Positions 40,445-47,044 of a DNA stretch of 51,240 nucleotides are shown in pieces. The translations under genes and the position numbers were made by a program. The DNA comes from Elusimicrobiales bacterium. GTDB lineage: Bacteria; Elusimicrobiota; Elusimicrobia; Elusimicrobiales; UBA9959. Numbering within the stretch: position 1 is the stretch's first letter; every line of letters begins with the position of its first letter. A model generated the notes under the pieces. That model ran no database searches. It worked only from the letters and a program-made list of their open reading frames with translations, and was not told where the DNA came from. Location of the stretch: assembly GCA_031082205.1 (NCBI GenBank), contig JAVHLJ010000007.1, positions 1-51,240 of the forward strand, in the 5' to 3' direction.

Positions 40445-42828
40445 ACGACAGGATAGAGAACTTCAACAGCCTCAGGCCGGCCGAGCTGGCGGCGCTGGAC
40501 AAGGCCGCCGGCTGGTCGCTCAACGCGGCGGAACTGGCCGCCGCCCAGAGGCATTTCAGGAAGCTGGGCCGCCCGCCGACGCGGGGAGAGCTGGAGACCA
40601 TAGCCCAGACCTGGTCCGAGCACTGCAAGCACAAGACCTTCTCCGGCCCGGTGCGCTTCGAGCGCAACGGGAAAGTCAAACGGTATAAGAACCTCTTCAA
40701 GGAGACCATAGTCGCCGCGACTAAAACGCTCAACAGGCCCTGGTGTCTTTCGGTGTTCAAGGACAACGCCGGCGTGGTCGAATTCGGCCGCGGTAAAAAA
40801 TGGGGCCTTGCCTTCAAGGCCGAGACGCACAATCATCCCTGCGCGCTGGAGCCCTACGGCGGCGCCGAGACCGGCGTCGGCGGCGTGGTGCGCGACATAC
40901 TCGGCGTGGGCCTGGGCGCCAAGCCGGTGCTAAATACCGATTTCTTCTGCTTCGGCCGGCAGGATTCCGGGATGAAGCTGCCGCCCGGCGCCCTCGGCGC
41001 GCGACGGATCATGGAAGGCGTGGTCGAGGGCGTGCGCGACTACGGCAACCGGATGGGCATACCGACGGCCGCCGGCGGCGTCGTTTTCGACGACGGCTAC
41101 GCGCTCAACCCGCTGGTCTTCGTAGGCTGCGCCGGACTGATACCGCGCGACAAGATAGACAAGAAAGTGCGCCCCGGCGACCTGATAGTGGCCGTGGGCG
41201 GCCGCACCGGGCGCGACGGCATACACGGCGCGACCTTCTCCTCGGCCGATATCGGCGAGGACTCGCCGTCGTCGGCGGTGCAGATAGGCCACGCGATAAA
41301 CGAGAAGAAGATACTCGACGCCCTGCTGCGCGCCCGCGACAAGGGCCTTTACTCCGCCGTGACCGACTGCGGCGCGGGCGGCTTCTCGTCGGCCATAGGC
41401 GAGCTGGCCTCCGACTGCGGCGCGGTGGTGGACCTGGAGAAAGCGCCGCTCAAGGACGTCTCGCTCGAGCCCTGGGAGATCTGGGTGTCCGAGTCGCAGG
41501 AGCGGATGGTCCTCTCCGTGCCGGAGCGGAACCTGCCGGCGCTCAGGAAGATATTCGCCCGCGAGGAATGCGAGCTGGCCGTGCTGGGCCGCTTCAATAA
41601 AAGCGGCAGGCTGCTGGTGCGGTTCATGGGCGAGCCGGTGGTGGACCTGCGCAACGATTTCCTGCACGGCGGCGTGCCGAACTTCGAGAAGCGCGCCGTG
41701 CATAAGCCGGTCCCGGTCAGCTCCCGGCCCCCGGCGAAACCCCGCCGGCCGCTCGGCCGGCTGCTGCGGGAGATCCTCGCCCACCCCAATGTGCGTTCGC
41801 GCGCGCCGATAGTGCGGCAGTACGACCACGAGGTGCAGGGCGGCACGGTGGTGAAACCTTTCACGGGACCGGCCGGCTACGGTCCGTCCGACGGCGCGGT
41901 CATCTGGCCGCAGTCCGCCACGCGCGACCTGGGCGATTTCTCCGGCTTCGCCGCCGCGCACGGCATCTGCCCTTCGGTGGGGCGCATAGACCCCTGCCAG
42001 ATGGCGCTCTACGCCTGCGACGAAGCGATGCGCAACCTGCTCTGCTGCGGCGCGGACATCACGAAGGCCGCCTTCCTGGACAACTTCTGCGCCGCCTCGC
42101 CGGCCGATCCGAAAGTGCTGGGCGACCTGGTCCTGGCGGCCGAAGGCTGCAGGGAGGCCGCGCTGGGCTTCGGCGCGCCTTTCATCTCGGGCAAGGACAG
42201 CTTCTATAACCAGTCGGCCGACGCGAAGGGGAAGCCTTACCCCATACCGCTGACGCTGCTCATCTCCGCCGTCGCGCCGGTTGACGATGTCCGCTCGGCG
42301 GTGACCACGAACTTCAAGCGCGCGGGCAACCCGGTCTACCTGGCCGGCGTCGCCTGGCGGGGGCTGGGCGGCTCGATCTACAACGAACTCGAGAGGTCCG
42401 GCAATAACGCGCTGGGCGTCATCTCCATAGAGGAGAGCGCGCGGCTTTACCGCGGCCTGCTGCCGGCCTTCAGGGCCGGGCTGGTAATGGCGGCTCACGA
42501 CATCTCCGACGGCGGCTTCGCGGCCGCGGCGGCCGAGATGGCCTTCGGCGGCGGCCTCGGAGCCGATCTCTGCCCGGAGACCGGCTACGCGCAGGACGGC
42601 ATCAGCCAGGCCGAGCTGCTTTTCGGGGAGTCCCCGTCGCGCCTGCTGATAGAGGTGGACAGGGAGCGGGAGCTGGCCTTCCGCTCGATGGTGGCCGGCC
42701 TGCCGGTGGAGCGGGTGGGCTTCGTCAGCGCCGGGCACGACCTGACGCTGCTCGACGGCGCCGGCCGCGAGCTGCTGCGGGAGGACATCGCCGTGCTCCT
42801 CGAGTGCTGGTCCGGGGAGGGAATATGA
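40441..42828 (+). CDS. purL: Phosphoribosylformylglycinamidine synthase, PurL subunit
   Basis: A 795-residue ATP-dependent subunit that converts FGAR to FGAM with ammonia from PurQ. It shows TWSEHCKHKTF near residue 60, the AETHNHP and EPYGGAETGVGGVVRD active-site segments, and two tandem AIR-synthase-like halves. The second half carries FISGKDSFYNQ and AHDISDGG. It is the small type lacking an N-terminal PurS domain and a C-terminal glutaminase, both supplied here by separate genes. The ATG at 40441 overlaps the purS stop, and its own stop overlaps the purQ start, so all three should be made in balanced amounts. Confidence 0.96.
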   Translation: MNDRIENFNSLRPAELAALDKAAGWSLNAAELAAAQRHFRKLGRPPTRGELETIAQTWSEHCKHKTFSGPVRFERNGKVKRYKNLFKETIVAATKTLNRPWCLSVFKDNAGVVEFGRGKKWGLAFKAETHNHPCALEPYGGAETGVGGVVRDILGVGLGAKPVLNTDFFCFGRQDSGMKLPPGALGARRIMEGVVEGVRDYGNRMGIPTAAGGVVFDDGYALNPLVFVGCAGLIPRDKIDKKVRPGDLIVAVGGRTGRDGIHGATFSSADIGEDSPSSAVQIGHAINEKKILDALLRARDKGLYSAVTDCGAGGFSSAIGELASDCGAVVDLEKAPLKDVSLEPWEIWVSESQERMVLSVPERNLPALRKIFAREECELAVLGRFNKSGRLLVRFMGEPVVDLRNDFLHGGVPNFEKRAVHKPVPVSSRPPAKPRRPLGRLLREILAHPNVRSRAPIVRQYDHEVQGGTVVKPFTGPAGYGPSDGAVIWPQSATRDLGDFSGFAAAHGICPSVGRIDPCQMALYACDEAMRNLLCCGADITKAAFLDNFCAASPADPKVLGDLVLAAEGCREAALGFGAPFISGKDSFYNQSADAKGKPYPIPLTLLISAVAPVDDVRSAVTTNFKRAGNPVYLAGVAWRGLGGSIYNELERSGNNALGVISIEESARLYRGLLPAFRAGLVMAAHDISDGGFAAAAAEMAFGGGLGADLCPETGYAQDGISQAELLFGESPSRLLIEVDRERELAFRSMVAGLPVERVGFVSAGHDLTLLDGAGRELLREDIAVLLECWSGEGI

Positions 42829-43565
42829 GCCGCAAACCTAAAGTGCTGGTCTTGCGCGGGGCCGGGACCAACTGCGACATAGAGACCTGCAACGCTTTCG
42901 CAGCGGCCGGCGGCGAGCCCGAGCTGGTGCACGCCGGGGAACTCGTCGAAGGCGTGAAAAAGTTCGCCGACTACGCCATACTGGCGCTGCCGGGCGGCTT
43001 TTCCTACGGCGACGACATCTCGGCCGGCAAGATCATGGCCGTGAAGCTGCGCTCGCTCAAGGCAGACCTGGGCAGGTTCATATCTTCCAGGCGGCCGGTC
43101 ATAGGCATCTGCAACGGCTTCCAGGTGCTGGTCAAGACCGGCTTCCTGCCGCATGAAAAGAGCGGCCGCCAGCTGGCGACGCTGGCCGCCAACGACTGCG
43201 GCCACTTCATAGCCAAGTGGGAGCGGCTGAGGGTCAACAAGCTCAGCCCCTGTCTCTTCACCAAGGGCCTGCCCGACGAGATAGAGCTGCCGATAGCGCA
43301 CGGCGAGGGCAAGTTCATCTCCTCCCCGCCGGAGATGGCGAAGATAAAGCGCGGCGAACTCTGCGCGCTGTCTTATGTCGCCAATCCTAACGGCTCGATG
43401 GCCGACCTGGCCGGGCTGACGAACCCGGAGGGGACGGTGCTGGGGCTGATGCCCCACCCCGAGCGGTTCTTCTTCCCCTGGCAGGCGCAGAACCGGCGCC
43501 CCGGCGCCGATTTCCTGCCGCCGGGCTACCTCTTCTTCAAGAACGCCGTGGACTATGCGAGGTAG
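42825..43565 (+). CDS. purQ: Phosphoribosylformylglycinamidine synthase, PurQ glutaminase subunit
   Basis: A 246-residue class I glutamine amidotransferase that supplies ammonia to PurL. The N-terminus has VLRGAGTNCDIET. The nucleophile Cys is in GICNGFQVL, and the His/Glu pair in LMPHPERFF. GGFSYGDDISAGK is the PurQ-specific loop. The ATG at 42825 overlaps the purL stop (ATGA). It is the last gene of the tight purC-S-L-Q block. After it the cluster is broken by a palindromic element and two AT-rich genes before purF. Confidence 0.96.
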   Translation: MSRKPKVLVLRGAGTNCDIETCNAFAAAGGEPELVHAGELVEGVKKFADYAILALPGGFSYGDDISAGKIMAVKLRSLKADLGRFISSRRPVIGICNGFQVLVKTGFLPHEKSGRQLATLAANDCGHFIAKWERLRVNKLSPCLFTKGLPDEIELPIAHGEGKFISSPPEMAKIKRGELCALSYVANPNGSMADLAGLTNPEGTVLGLMPHPERFFFPWQAQNRRPGADFLPPGYLFFKNAVDYAR

Positions 43566-43580
43566 TGTAAGGAGAACCTT

Positions 43581-43770
43581 GCCGGGTGCTGCCGGGGGCT
43601 CACCACGAAAAACACGCTCGCACACCGTGCTCGCGCTCCGACCTCGCCGCTCGCGCTCGTATGCGCCTCCGCATCCTCGGGATGTGATTCCACCGGCTAG
43701 CTCCGGCGCATACTCCGTAAGCTCGCGGCTTCGGACGGTTTTCTTAGGTGAGCCCCCGACATCACCCGGC
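43581..43770. repeat. Palindromic element B (190 bp) after purQ
   Basis: The ends (43581-43604 and 43747-43770) are 24-base inverted repeats with two mismatches. Nested inside are GTATGCGCC (43659-43667) with GGCGCATAC (43705-43713), and a CATCC-TCG-GGATG hairpin. It begins 16 bases after the purQ stop and contains no convincing gene. Like element A it looks like a non-autonomous palindromic repeat or a structured RNA. Flanking target-site duplications were not found by eye. Confidence 0.75.
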
Positions 43771-43833
43771 TGTTTCCCGATGGAACGGGGTAGGTTTTGA
43801 TAGGGGGTTGGTCGCAATTAGTGGGTAAGTTTT

Positions 43834-44682
43834 ATGGAACGTAAACAATATTTAAATAAGTATAAAGTGATATTTTTTACTACGTTTTCCATATTATTTC
43901 TGTGGGATTCAAAGATTTTAACTAAGGAACCTCTTAGCGGGCTTACCTTTGCCGGGGTTTTATCTTTGCTTGGCATATACACCATAATTGTTTTAGTAAA
44001 GAGTGTCGTTCTTGGGACCTTCTTTTGGGTTTTATGGTATTTATCAATGAAAAGCCAGGCAGCTAAAAACCATGAAAAAAAAGATTATATGCACGACGTT
44101 TCCATAAAAAGGAAGCAGAATGACGGTAATGAACAAGAAAAAAATAAATATCCAAGCCCCCGAATAAACCCCGAGGCAATGCTTGAAATTAGTAAGAAGA
44201 TATCGGCTAGCGCATTCTCTCGTTTGGGGAGTGCGCGAAATAGCTTAACCGCTCCAATGGAATGCGAGTTGTTCGCGTTATATGCAGTAACAGCTGCTGC
44301 AGCATTAATTGATAAGGGATATCTTTCGGGTGGTGCGACGAGGAGGCTCATTGATTTGTTTTTAAAACCAAGCGCAGACTCCCCGTCACCTATTGTGATG
44401 CACGCGTTATTGTCACCAAAAAATCTTTTTGTGGAAGGAAGCTTGGTTGAAAATGCAGCGAATGATGTTGTGAGCCTTTATAAAAAAATTCCACTAGCTG
44501 CAGAATACTTTGTAGAAAATTACGAGAAGGATCCGGCAGCTGCGGCAGTTAGATTGGTTGAATCCACTCCGCTTTTGCAGCAACTCGGATTAGATGTGCC
44601 GCCCGCCATGAATTTGCCTGAAATGGTGCATGAAAGTGTCCAAATGGCCCGAAGTTTGATGCAAAATAAAACATCAGCTTAA
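43834..44682 (+). CDS. Unknown membrane protein, AT-rich, between purQ and purF
   Basis: A 282-residue protein that I do not recognise. Two hydrophobic segments (about 12-27 and 40-70) suggest an N-terminal membrane hairpin. A charged, lysine-rich linker (about 73-110) follows, then a soluble, mainly helical domain with an Ala-rich stretch (LYAVTAAAALIDKGYLSGG). Its codons are far richer in A and T than those of the neighbouring pur genes, indicating recent transfer. GGGTAAG lies a few bases before the ATG. A second AT-rich gene follows 52 bp later, and both upstream regions contain AATTAGTG or ATTAGTG near the ribosome-binding site. Paired function is inferred from adjacency. Confidence 0.75.
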   Translation: MERKQYLNKYKVIFFTTFSILFLWDSKILTKEPLSGLTFAGVLSLLGIYTIIVLVKSVVLGTFFWVLWYLSMKSQAAKNHEKKDYMHDVSIKRKQNDGNEQEKNKYPSPRINPEAMLEISKKISASAFSRLGSARNSLTAPMECELFALYAVTAAAALIDKGYLSGGATRRLIDLFLKPSADSPSPIVMHALLSPKNLFVEGSLVENAANDVVSLYKKIPLAAEYFVENYEKDPAAAAVRLVESTPLLQQLGLDVPPAMNLPEMVHESVQMARSLMQNKTSA

Positions 44683-44734
44683 GTGCCCGGTTTTAGGCGG
44701 TCGATGTGGTTTTGACTGAAATTAGTGAGGTGTT

Positions 44735-45529
44735 ATGTTCTGGTTCGCAAAAAAGAAAACAGAGATGGAGCTGTGCCTAGCGGAAATGGCTGAAATAGGG
44801 GAGGAGTTGTATTCAAAGGAGAACGTTTTTAAAAAACAAATATTGCCTCATCTGATTAAAAAAATTGAAAAAAATGTTAAAGAGATTCCTAAAAAATGGA
44901 ATTATAACAAGTTCACTCGCAAGTCGTATTTAAAAAACGAAATCTCTCACATTGCTTTTAAGCTTATTGATAATGGAGATTGTTATAAAGATACGGGGGT
45001 TTTAAATGAAGATGGGGAGGCTATAGTCCAAATATTCATCCAAATGTTGGGAGATTTAGAAAAAGTCAAATTCATGGATTCTAATGCAGTAATAGAATCA
45101 AAAGCAGAGTTGGAAAAAGCCATATCGCATTCAACCTCTCCTGAAAATAAAAAAAAGGTTGTTGCGGCATGCCTTTCTGAGTTGAAAAAAATCGAGAAAG
45201 ATTTTATGGATAGGGGATGGATTTTCTTTGAGTTAATTAAAGAAAGTGCAATTAAGAGTGCTAAAGATCAAAATAAAACTTTTTGGTCAACCTTGGAGGG
45301 GTATCCTATTAAGACTATAGCGCTCCTTCTTGTTTCTAACGCTATAATGGATTCCCTGGTTTCAGGGGAATATCATATTTATAGAGGTAAATTAAGCATG
45401 GCGGGCGAAGGGTTAAAGAATGGCTATGTGTACATAAATTCAGAGCTAATTAAATTGGGGTATCAAACTAAAGAGTCGGCACAGAAAGACTTGCATTCTC
45501 TTGAATCGCAGATACGGCAGATGGGTTAA
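44735..45529 (+). CDS. Unknown soluble protein, AT-rich, between purQ and purF
   Basis: A 264-residue protein of no recognised family. It is Lys/Glu-rich and predicted largely helical, with possible coiled-coil stretches near 70-80 and 105-160 and one hydrophobic helix (about 190-205, TIALLLVSNAIMDSLV) too short to call as membrane. There is no signal peptide. GTGAGG precedes the ATG. Composition matches the gene before it and contrasts sharply with purF after it, so the two probably arrived together as a roughly 2-kb insertion. A role in defence, stress or a membrane complex is possible but unsupported. Confidence 0.75.
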   Translation: MFWFAKKKTEMELCLAEMAEIGEELYSKENVFKKQILPHLIKKIEKNVKEIPKKWNYNKFTRKSYLKNEISHIAFKLIDNGDCYKDTGVLNEDGEAIVQIFIQMLGDLEKVKFMDSNAVIESKAELEKAISHSTSPENKKKVVAACLSELKKIEKDFMDRGWIFFELIKESAIKSAKDQNKTFWSTLEGYPIKTIALLLVSNAIMDSLVSGEYHIYRGKLSMAGEGLKNGYVYINSELIKLGYQTKESAQKDLHSLESQIRQMG

Positions 45530-45582
45530 ATCTTGTAGGAAAAATCATGCGTCTTATCGGGTGAAGCGATTATGGTGTTAAG

Positions 45583-45612
45583 TTGCCACTATGCAAGGGT
45601 ATTGATTTTAAT
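45583..45612 (+). promoter_or_regulatory. Possible promoter for purF-purD
   Basis: TTGCCA (45583-45588) and TTTAAT (45607-45612) are separated by 18 bases in the AT-rich gap after the inserted genes. It could restore expression of purF-purD downstream of the insertion. Weak match; no purine operator was recognised. Confidence 0.3.
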
Positions 45613-45634
45613 AGATTAAGGCTGCGGAGAAAAC

Positions 45635-47044
45635 ATGTGCGGAATATTCGGGATAACGGACAATAAGGAAGCGGCGAGGCTGTCCTATATCGGCCTGTTC
45701 ACGCTGCAGCACCGCGGCCAGGAAAGCGCGGGTCTGGCGGTGGACGACGGGCGCGGCATAAACTGCCGGGCCGGCATGGGCCTGGTCGGCGACGTCTTCG
45801 CCGGCGGCACGCTGGAAGACCTGCCCGGCCGCGCGGCCATCGGCCATGTCCGCTATTCCACGGCCGGGGGTTCGTCGATCGGCAACGCGCAGCCGCTCTG
45901 CTTCAACACCGCGCTGGGTCCCGTCGCCGTCGCGCATAACGGCAACCTCACCAATACCGCGGAACTCAAAAAGAACCTCCAGTCCCGCGGGGCCATCTTC
46001 CGGAGCACCTCGGACAGCGAGACCATAATACACCTGATGGCCTTCTCCGGTAAGCGGGACCCGCTGGCCGCGCTCGAGAAAAGCCTGCCTAAGCTGGCCG
46101 GGGCCTACTCTTTCCTGTTCATGACGCCCGGCCGCGTCATAGCGGCCCGGGACCCGCTCGGCATCCGGCCCCTCGTGATCGGCCGCCTCGGCCGCTCCTG
46201 GCTTTTCGCATCCGAGACCTGCGCCATAGAGGTGGTCGGCGCCAGGGTCGTGCGCGAGGTGGAGCCCGGCGAGCTGGTCTGGGTCGAGAGGGGCCGCCTG
46301 CGGTCGAAGCGCTTCGCGCCGCGCCGGCGCCCGGCCCGCTGCGTCTTCGAGCAGGTCTATTTCGCGCGGCCAGATTCATTCGTCATGGGCAAGAGCGTGC
46401 AGGGCGCGCGCTACGAGATGGGCCGCCTGCTGGCCGCGGAGCTCAGGGCCGCCGGCGTGAAAGCGGACCTGGTCTCCGGCGTGCCGGACTCGGGCAATTC
46501 CGCCGCGCTCGGCTGCGCCAAGGGGCTGCGGCTGCCTTACCGCCCCGTCTTCATGCGCAACCACTATACCGGCCGCTCTTTCATACAGCCGGACCAGAAG
46601 ATACGCGAGTTCACGGCCAGGCTCAAGCTGGCTCCCATCCGCGACGTGATAGCCGGCAGGACCGTGCTGATAATAGACGACTCGCTGGTGCGCGGCACCA
46701 CCTCGCGCAAGATAGTCCGCAGCCTGAAAAAGGCCGGTGCCCGAAAGGTTATAATGGCCCTGGCTTCGCCCCCGGTGCTCTCGCCCTGCTATTACGGCAT
46801 CGATATCGCCAGCCGGAAGGAACTGGCCGCCCGGCGGATGAGCCGCGAGGCCCTGCGGCGGCATATCGGCGCCGACGGGCTGCACTACCTGTCCGTGCCG
46901 GGCCTGATGCTGGCCTGCTCGGGCAAGGAACTTCCGGAGCATCTCCAGGAGGGGATGAGGCCCGGGCTGAACGGCCTCGAAAAGGATTTCTGCACGGCCT
47001 GCTTCGGAGGAAAATACCCGGTTAAGCCGTCTAAAGGGGAATGA
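45635..47044 (+). CDS. purF: Amidophosphoribosyltransferase
   Basis: A 469-residue enzyme for the first step of de novo purine synthesis, making phosphoribosylamine from PRPP and glutamine. It begins MCGIFGI, so the nucleophile Cys2 is exposed by Met removal and there is no propeptide. The phosphoribosyltransferase motif is VLIIDDSLVRGTTSRK. Four Cys in ARCVFEQVYF, LSPCYYG and FCTACFGG match the [4Fe-4S] ligands of the Bacillus-type enzyme, so an oxygen-sensitive cluster is expected. CGGAGA precedes the ATG. It follows the AT-rich insertion and is one base from purD. Confidence 0.97.
   Translation: MCGIFGITDNKEAARLSYIGLFTLQHRGQESAGLAVDDGRGINCRAGMGLVGDVFAGGTLEDLPGRAAIGHVRYSTAGGSSIGNAQPLCFNTALGPVAVAHNGNLTNTAELKKNLQSRGAIFRSTSDSETIIHLMAFSGKRDPLAALEKSLPKLAGAYSFLFMTPGRVIAARDPLGIRPLVIGRLGRSWLFASETCAIEVVGARVVREVEPGELVWVERGRLRSKRFAPRRRPARCVFEQVYFARPDSFVMGKSVQGARYEMGRLLAAELRAAGVKADLVSGVPDSGNSAALGCAKGLRLPYRPVFMRNHYTGRSFIQPDQKIREFTARLKLAPIRDVIAGRTVLIIDDSLVRGTTSRKIVRSLKKAGARKVIMALASPPVLSPCYYGIDIASRKELAARRMSREALRRHIGADGLHYLSVPGLMLACSGKELPEHLQEGMRPGLNGLEKDFCTACFGGKYPVKPSKGE

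Follow-up and report, generated by a model that had tools for sequence, protein, structure and literature searches.

Introduction

Accessory genes located between the repressor and the integrase of a phage represent lysogeny-region cargo, of which superinfection exclusion and defence genes are examples. The integration hotspots between core genes that host the defence islands of E. coli have been mapped (PMC10121019), and a C-terminal glycine pattern has been reported for conjugated bacterial cGAS (PMC10097602). No papers on purQ/purF islands were found in our literature search.

Here, we compare with these systems a pair of genes, orf1 and orf2, that lie between purQ and purF in an Elusimicrobiales bacterium (assembly GCA_031082205.1, contig JAVHLJ010000007.1, positions 1 to 51,240; this whole stretch of 51,240 nucleotides is referred to as the window). 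What makes the locus interesting is less the pair as a proven system than an unmodelled protein family whose last residue is invariant and the hotspot that hosts one of its members.

An insertion hotspot between purQ and purF

The two genes have intact reading frames and are encoded in tandem on the same strand, with 52 bp between them (Table 1). As the initial annotation had described, they form an AT-rich stretch of about 2 kb between GC-rich purine genes, with a GC content of 40.4% in orf1 (GC3 37.9%) and 35.4% in orf2 (GC3 37.1%) against 65.0% in purQ (GC3 88.2%), 67.0% in purF (GC3 85.9%) and 68.1% in purD (GC3 84.8%). A chimeric assembly is unlikely, since the insertion has the expected purine genes on either side and congeners share 93-94% identity in PurF. 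Scans for promoters and terminators in the insertion gave no excess over shuffled sequence, an Rfam search gave no match, and a leader sequence common to orf1 and orf2 was not significant, with 8.6% of shuffles being equally good.

Table 1. Coordinates of the features at the purQ-purF locus of the window.
Feature	Position	Strand	Basis
purQ, left flank of the insertion	42825..43565	+	ORF list; PurQ homologues in relatives
purQ-purF insertion, 2,069 bp	43566..45634	none	12 bp (empty) in congener G003
Dispersed inverted-repeat element, ~200 bp	43569..43790	none	Genus-wide repeat
orf1, 282 aa, N-terminal membrane segment(s) followed by a helical soluble part	43834..44682	+	
orf2, 264 aa, two tandem copies of the HIYRG/C-terminal-Gly domain	44735..45529	+	
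orf2 domain copy 1 (aa 1-132), degenerate motif	44735..45130	+	
orf2 domain copy 2 (aa 137-264), canonical	45143..45526	+	
SGEYHIYRG motif of orf2 copy 2 (aa 210-218)	45362..45388	+	
Codon for the invariant C-terminal Gly of orf2, TAA directly after	45524..45526	+	
purF, right flank of the insertion	45635..47044	+	ORF list; PurF search

For a comparison of the site, we retrieved PurF loci by search from 30 genomes in the family of this bacterium. In 19 of these, purQ is directly followed by purF, with a gap of 5-107 bp (12 bp in the congener G003), and the stretch in the window is therefore an insertion. Five genomes have a resolved insert, of 2.07 kb in the window, 12.8 kb in G002, 2.5 kb in G018, 0.8 kb in G015 and 3.8 kb in G028. 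These inserts are mutually unrelated and each genome carries different cargo, which makes the purQ-purF junction an insertion hotspot. In the congener G001, unrelated sequence extends for 158 bp upstream of purF to the contig end (L089:1882-2039), and this genome probably carries an insert at the site, too. The sequence upstream of purF is other than purQ as far as the contig end in G008, G025 and G023, and purF adjoins other genes in G014 and G004.

The cargo ranges widely. One close relative, the congener G002, carries restriction and defence-type genes at the site, encoding an Eco57I/type IIG-like methylase, a SNF2 helicase with a PLD domain, an AAA ATPase and three SLFN_AlbA_2 proteins, of which two also have a RecG-C-like HATPase_c_4 domain. 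The insert of G018 (L097:486-2332) encompasses two genes, for a Sel1-repeat protein and a membrane protein. Judged by eye, those of G015 and G028 contain outer-membrane-protein-like sequence or remnants, in G028 together with a histidine kinase-like gene and small membrane genes, and a lycopene-cyclase-like gene is also among the non-defence cargo at the site.

Three side observations concern this cargo. The 12.8-kb island of G002 at L096 (G002:C40:85000-98300) could represent an uncharacterised restriction-type system, and the membrane protein of G018 contains a GNVQVNQEGNNNIV stretch and has no family match. ORF6N-like genes, recognised by eye, are found upstream of purF in both G008 and G025 (L100:41-616 and L103:619-1167), in G008 along with a multi-pass membrane protein, and a similar gene lies beside an orf2 relative in G008 (L034:1781-2296), hinting at one type of mobile element that uses the purF site.

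The window insert itself has no integrase, no clear duplication common to its junctions and no att boundary. The initial annotation proposed that the pair was acquired horizontally, and this is supported by the site being empty in a congener and in most of the family, by the different cargo that it holds in other genomes and by the base composition; vertical conservation of the pair at the locus was not observed. The palindromic element described for the insertion is a real inverted repeat, with 33-nt arms (43581-43613 and 43738-43770) that are 82% complementary. It is a separate, dispersed element of the genus and is not specific to this insert, as it has 19 matches in the window genome and 8, 17 and 54 in three congeners (G001-G003), and its position beside purQ is probably independent of orf1 and orf2. 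With its ~200 bp and inverted ends, it is MITE-like in appearance.

A family with an HIYRG motif and a terminal glycine

Searches of Pfam, PHROGs, NCBIfam, PADLOC and PDB sequences gave no significant match for either orf1 or orf2, and the NCBIfam matches of orf2 to sigma-factor and glutathione-synthase models are far below the cut-off. The claim that the two genes belong to no recognised family thus holds for all libraries tested, but for orf2 it needs a qualification: on sequence grounds, orf2 is no orphan and belongs to a widespread, unnamed family. Its first matches were weak and came from a second Elusimicrobia genome and a Desulfohalobium plasmid; starting from these two, we assembled by iterative search a family of 19 members, which covers eight phyla. 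It includes five members from Elusimicrobiota, members on plasmids of Agrobacterium, Sinorhizobium and Desulfohalobium, members in single genomes of Deltaproteobacteria, Nitrospira, Salinicola, Patescibacteria, Sedimentisphaerales, Allorhizobium, Lentisphaerae, Hymenobacter and Smithella, and two viral-contig types. Viral contigs scanned for a DNA pattern yielded one chance match and one contig already in the set. No model in Pfam, PHROGs, NCBIfam or PADLOC covers the relatives, and the ten searched against PADLOC gave matches only at E > 0.001.

The family domain is helical and has about 130 residues. Pairwise identity between members is often only 20-30%, and the signature consists of [ST]G[QE]xHIYRG, a downstream invariant G and a Gly as the final residue, which in the second copy of orf2 correspond to SGEYHIYRG, G224 and the last residue of the protein. 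On the DNA, a Gly codon is directly followed by a stop codon in all 19 family genes, among which each of the four Gly codons and three stops occurs, and while the penultimate residue varies, the last one is always Gly (19/19). Even in L028, where the HIYRG motif has decayed, the terminal Gly is kept. It is unusual for proteins so divergent to have an invariant last residue, which suggests that the free C-terminus has a function.

Judging from profile and direct comparisons, orf2 is a tandem duplication of this domain. In addition to its C-terminal half, its N-terminal half (residues ~31-132) aligns to the family profile, with an E-value of 1.2e-5 (1.5e-7 in hhalign), and when the halves are aligned directly, only 0.15% of shuffles are equally good. 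Copy 1 has lost the motif, with GDCYKDTG at the position of GEYHIYRG in copy 2, and copy 2 keeps all invariant residues, terminal Gly included. The AlphaFold model has high confidence in the C-terminal copy from residue 141 (block pLDDT mostly 92-97), where it predicts helices, a small β-hairpin at HIYRG and two further helices that lead to the terminal Gly. A Foldseek search of this model against the PDB gave no match at E ≤ 0.001, and the best Z-score in VIA-align, 8.1 to prenyl-synthase and ribosomal S20 helices, is within the background for helical models and was treated as generic helical similarity. A search of BFVD gave one match, an uncharacterised Myoviridae protein (E = 5.9e-4).

Membrane association and mobile neighbourhoods

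In seven relatives (L027, L031, L032, L035, L036, L040 and L041), N-terminal transmembrane segments are fused to the family domain, and most single-domain relatives start with a short hydrophobic stretch (e.g., MGFFSNLF, MVFGLF or MSFLSNIF). The start of orf2, MFWFAKKK, resembles the latter, and orf2 has no transmembrane segment of its own. The genes around the relatives are often those of mobile elements. The order is repressor, family gene, integrase in L027 and L029, the family gene comes after an S24-type repressor in L043 and abuts an integrase in L041 and L042, a divergent HTH gene is nearby in L032, and an integrase lies within 2 kb in L023 and L025; these integrases are of the tyrosine type and the repressors are HTH or S24 proteins. 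Other neighbours are a TIR protein (L033, from Salinicola), an SF1 helicase (L035) and a MazF-like toxin (L031). For four members, L036, L038, L039 (from Hymenobacter) and L040, no phage or defence neighbour is clear. The transmembrane fusions and hydrophobic N-termini and the repressor, integrase and plasmid neighbourhoods thus characterise a mobile, membrane-linked family that is often found in phage or plasmid accessory regions. As a separate observation, the Smithella relative (L040:1812-5204) lies ~1.2 kb downstream of a purF gene, which may be a coincidence or a second purF-linked site.

As for orf1, which had been described as a two-helix membrane protein, one segment is clear (residues 42-60) and the second, a weaker hydrophobic helix near residues 12-28, appears in a low-confidence model, made without an alignment and of poor quality (pLDDT 54). 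No homologue of orf1 was detected in 341 genomes of the phylum, in plasmids, in phages or in viral contigs. The ideas that it could be a remote paralogue of orf2 (probability 0.3%) or a relative of the upstream neighbour of the L035 family member are unsupported, and the membrane parts fused to the domain in orf2 relatives do not resemble it. With no detectable homologue of orf1, no orf1-like neighbour seen beside an orf2 relative and no second instance of the pair found, the undescribed two-component system of the initial annotation is a candidate only. From the adjacency of the two genes and the membrane-domain fusions in relatives, we infer that orf1 and orf2 may work together.

Proposed role and rival explanations

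We propose, with a probability of about 0.4, that the pair is mobile accessory cargo at the recurrent purQ-purF site that acts at the membrane, excluding phages or defending the cell against them. In such a role, the orf2 domain would be a cytoplasmic helical unit with an S-G-x-x-H-I-Y-R-G hairpin and a free C-terminal Gly, tethered in relatives by fused transmembrane segments or a short hydrophobic N-terminus, and the separate membrane protein orf1 would probably supply or share the membrane platform for orf2. The HxYRG hairpin and the C-terminus, together the likely working site, might let the domain sense or bind a ligand linked to infection and then act at the membrane, where superinfection would be blocked or the infected cell stopped; copy 1 could be a regulatory or degenerate half.

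This proposal is in line with the site being empty in 19 of 30 genomes and occupied by other inserts elsewhere, including the restriction, helicase and Schlafen cargo of G002, with the repressors and/or tyrosine integrases beside several of the relatives listed above and the members on plasmids, and with the TIR, SF1 helicase and MazF-like neighbours, the seven membrane fusions and the terminal Gly in every member. It is weakened by the lack of a convincing PADLOC match for orf1, orf2 or ten relatives, by the four relatives with no clear phage or defence neighbour, by an orf1 with no homologue and by other cargo at the site that is partly of a non-defence kind; moreover, integrase and repressor neighbours indicate mobility, not defence. 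A serious rival, if a somewhat unlikely one, is that a permissive site took up the pair as neutral or selfish passenger DNA, left by a prophage or integrative element that lost its integrase, with orf2 a former lysogeny-region gene and orf1 its chance neighbour. The very different cargo accepted by the site, fragments included, would fit such an origin, as would the missing integrase and att boundary, the lost motif of copy 1 and an orf1 with no homologue, but both frames are intact, copy 2 keeps every invariant residue and the genes stand in close tandem.

A toxin-antitoxin or toxin-immunity pair, with orf1 as a membrane-acting toxin and orf2 as its cytoplasmic neutraliser, would explain adjacent genes for a membrane-bound and a soluble protein in a mobile context, and one orf2 relative (L031) is near a type II toxin gene; we nevertheless find it improbable, as neither protein matches a toxin-antitoxin family, both are large for the class, and the relatives of orf2 are found on their own or joined to membrane segments, which is ill-suited to a dedicated antitoxin. 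The terminal Gly could otherwise be a ligation handle, through which a ubiquitin-like or other ligase joins the protein to a target or lipid as in type II CBASS CD-NTases. An invariant Gly after a variable penultimate residue is indeed what has been reported in conjugated bacterial cGAS (PMC10097602), but a ThiF search of 15 genomes and records found no ThiF-type E1 near any family gene, nor any ThiF match in the whole of G080 (96% complete), the small G344 or two viral records, and the predicted orf2 fold is helical and not ubiquitin-like, which leaves this explanation distinctly improbable. That the insertion encodes a host regulator of purine metabolism is barely credible: its position speaks for it, as does the Smithella relative near purF, but the pair is missing from the rest of the genus and from nearly the whole family, its composition is foreign, and no purine gene was seen near other relatives.

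A more specific form of the exclusion or defence proposal, which we consider unlikely, is that orf2 represents a phage- and plasmid-borne, membrane-associated family whose HxYRG hairpin and free terminal Gly form an exclusion or defence working site, with the window holding a two-protein version with a regulatory first copy and an orphan membrane partner. If right, the exclusion or defence proposal as a whole would provide a family of eight phyla, which has no model in the libraries tested, with a motif and with a working site that can be tested, namely HxYRG and the terminal Gly. It would also mark the Elusimicrobiota purQ-purF junction as a site worth searching for new defence or mobile cargo.

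Comparison with known systems

At the level of the domain, one comparison is with the flagellar chaperone FliS (PF02561), whose last helices are weakly matched by the relative L037 (E = 8e-4). The match covers 40 residues only, scores 20.0 bits against a Pfam gathering cut-off of 26.7 and is seen for no other member, and we rejected membership on this basis. With type II CBASS CD-NTases, the family shares an invariant C-terminal Gly and variable penultimate residues, but it differs from them in having no nucleotidyltransferase match, no nearby E1 and a helical predicted fold.

At the level of gene context, one of the closest parallels is lysogeny-region cargo. The window copy differs from it in lying outside a recognisable prophage and in its tandem duplication, and we know of no exclusion activity for the orf2 family; its relatives resemble such cargo in the repressor-gene-integrase order of L027 and L029, the position after an S24 repressor in L043 and next to an integrase in L041, and their common association with the membrane. 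Compared with the hotspots of E. coli, the purQ-purF hotspot sits inside a purine operon in Elusimicrobiota, and the window insert has neither integrase nor att site and carries cargo that matches no defence model. Nevertheless, it shares with them a fixed site between core genes that is empty in most genomes and filled with varied cargo in others, once with restriction, helicase and Schlafen genes.
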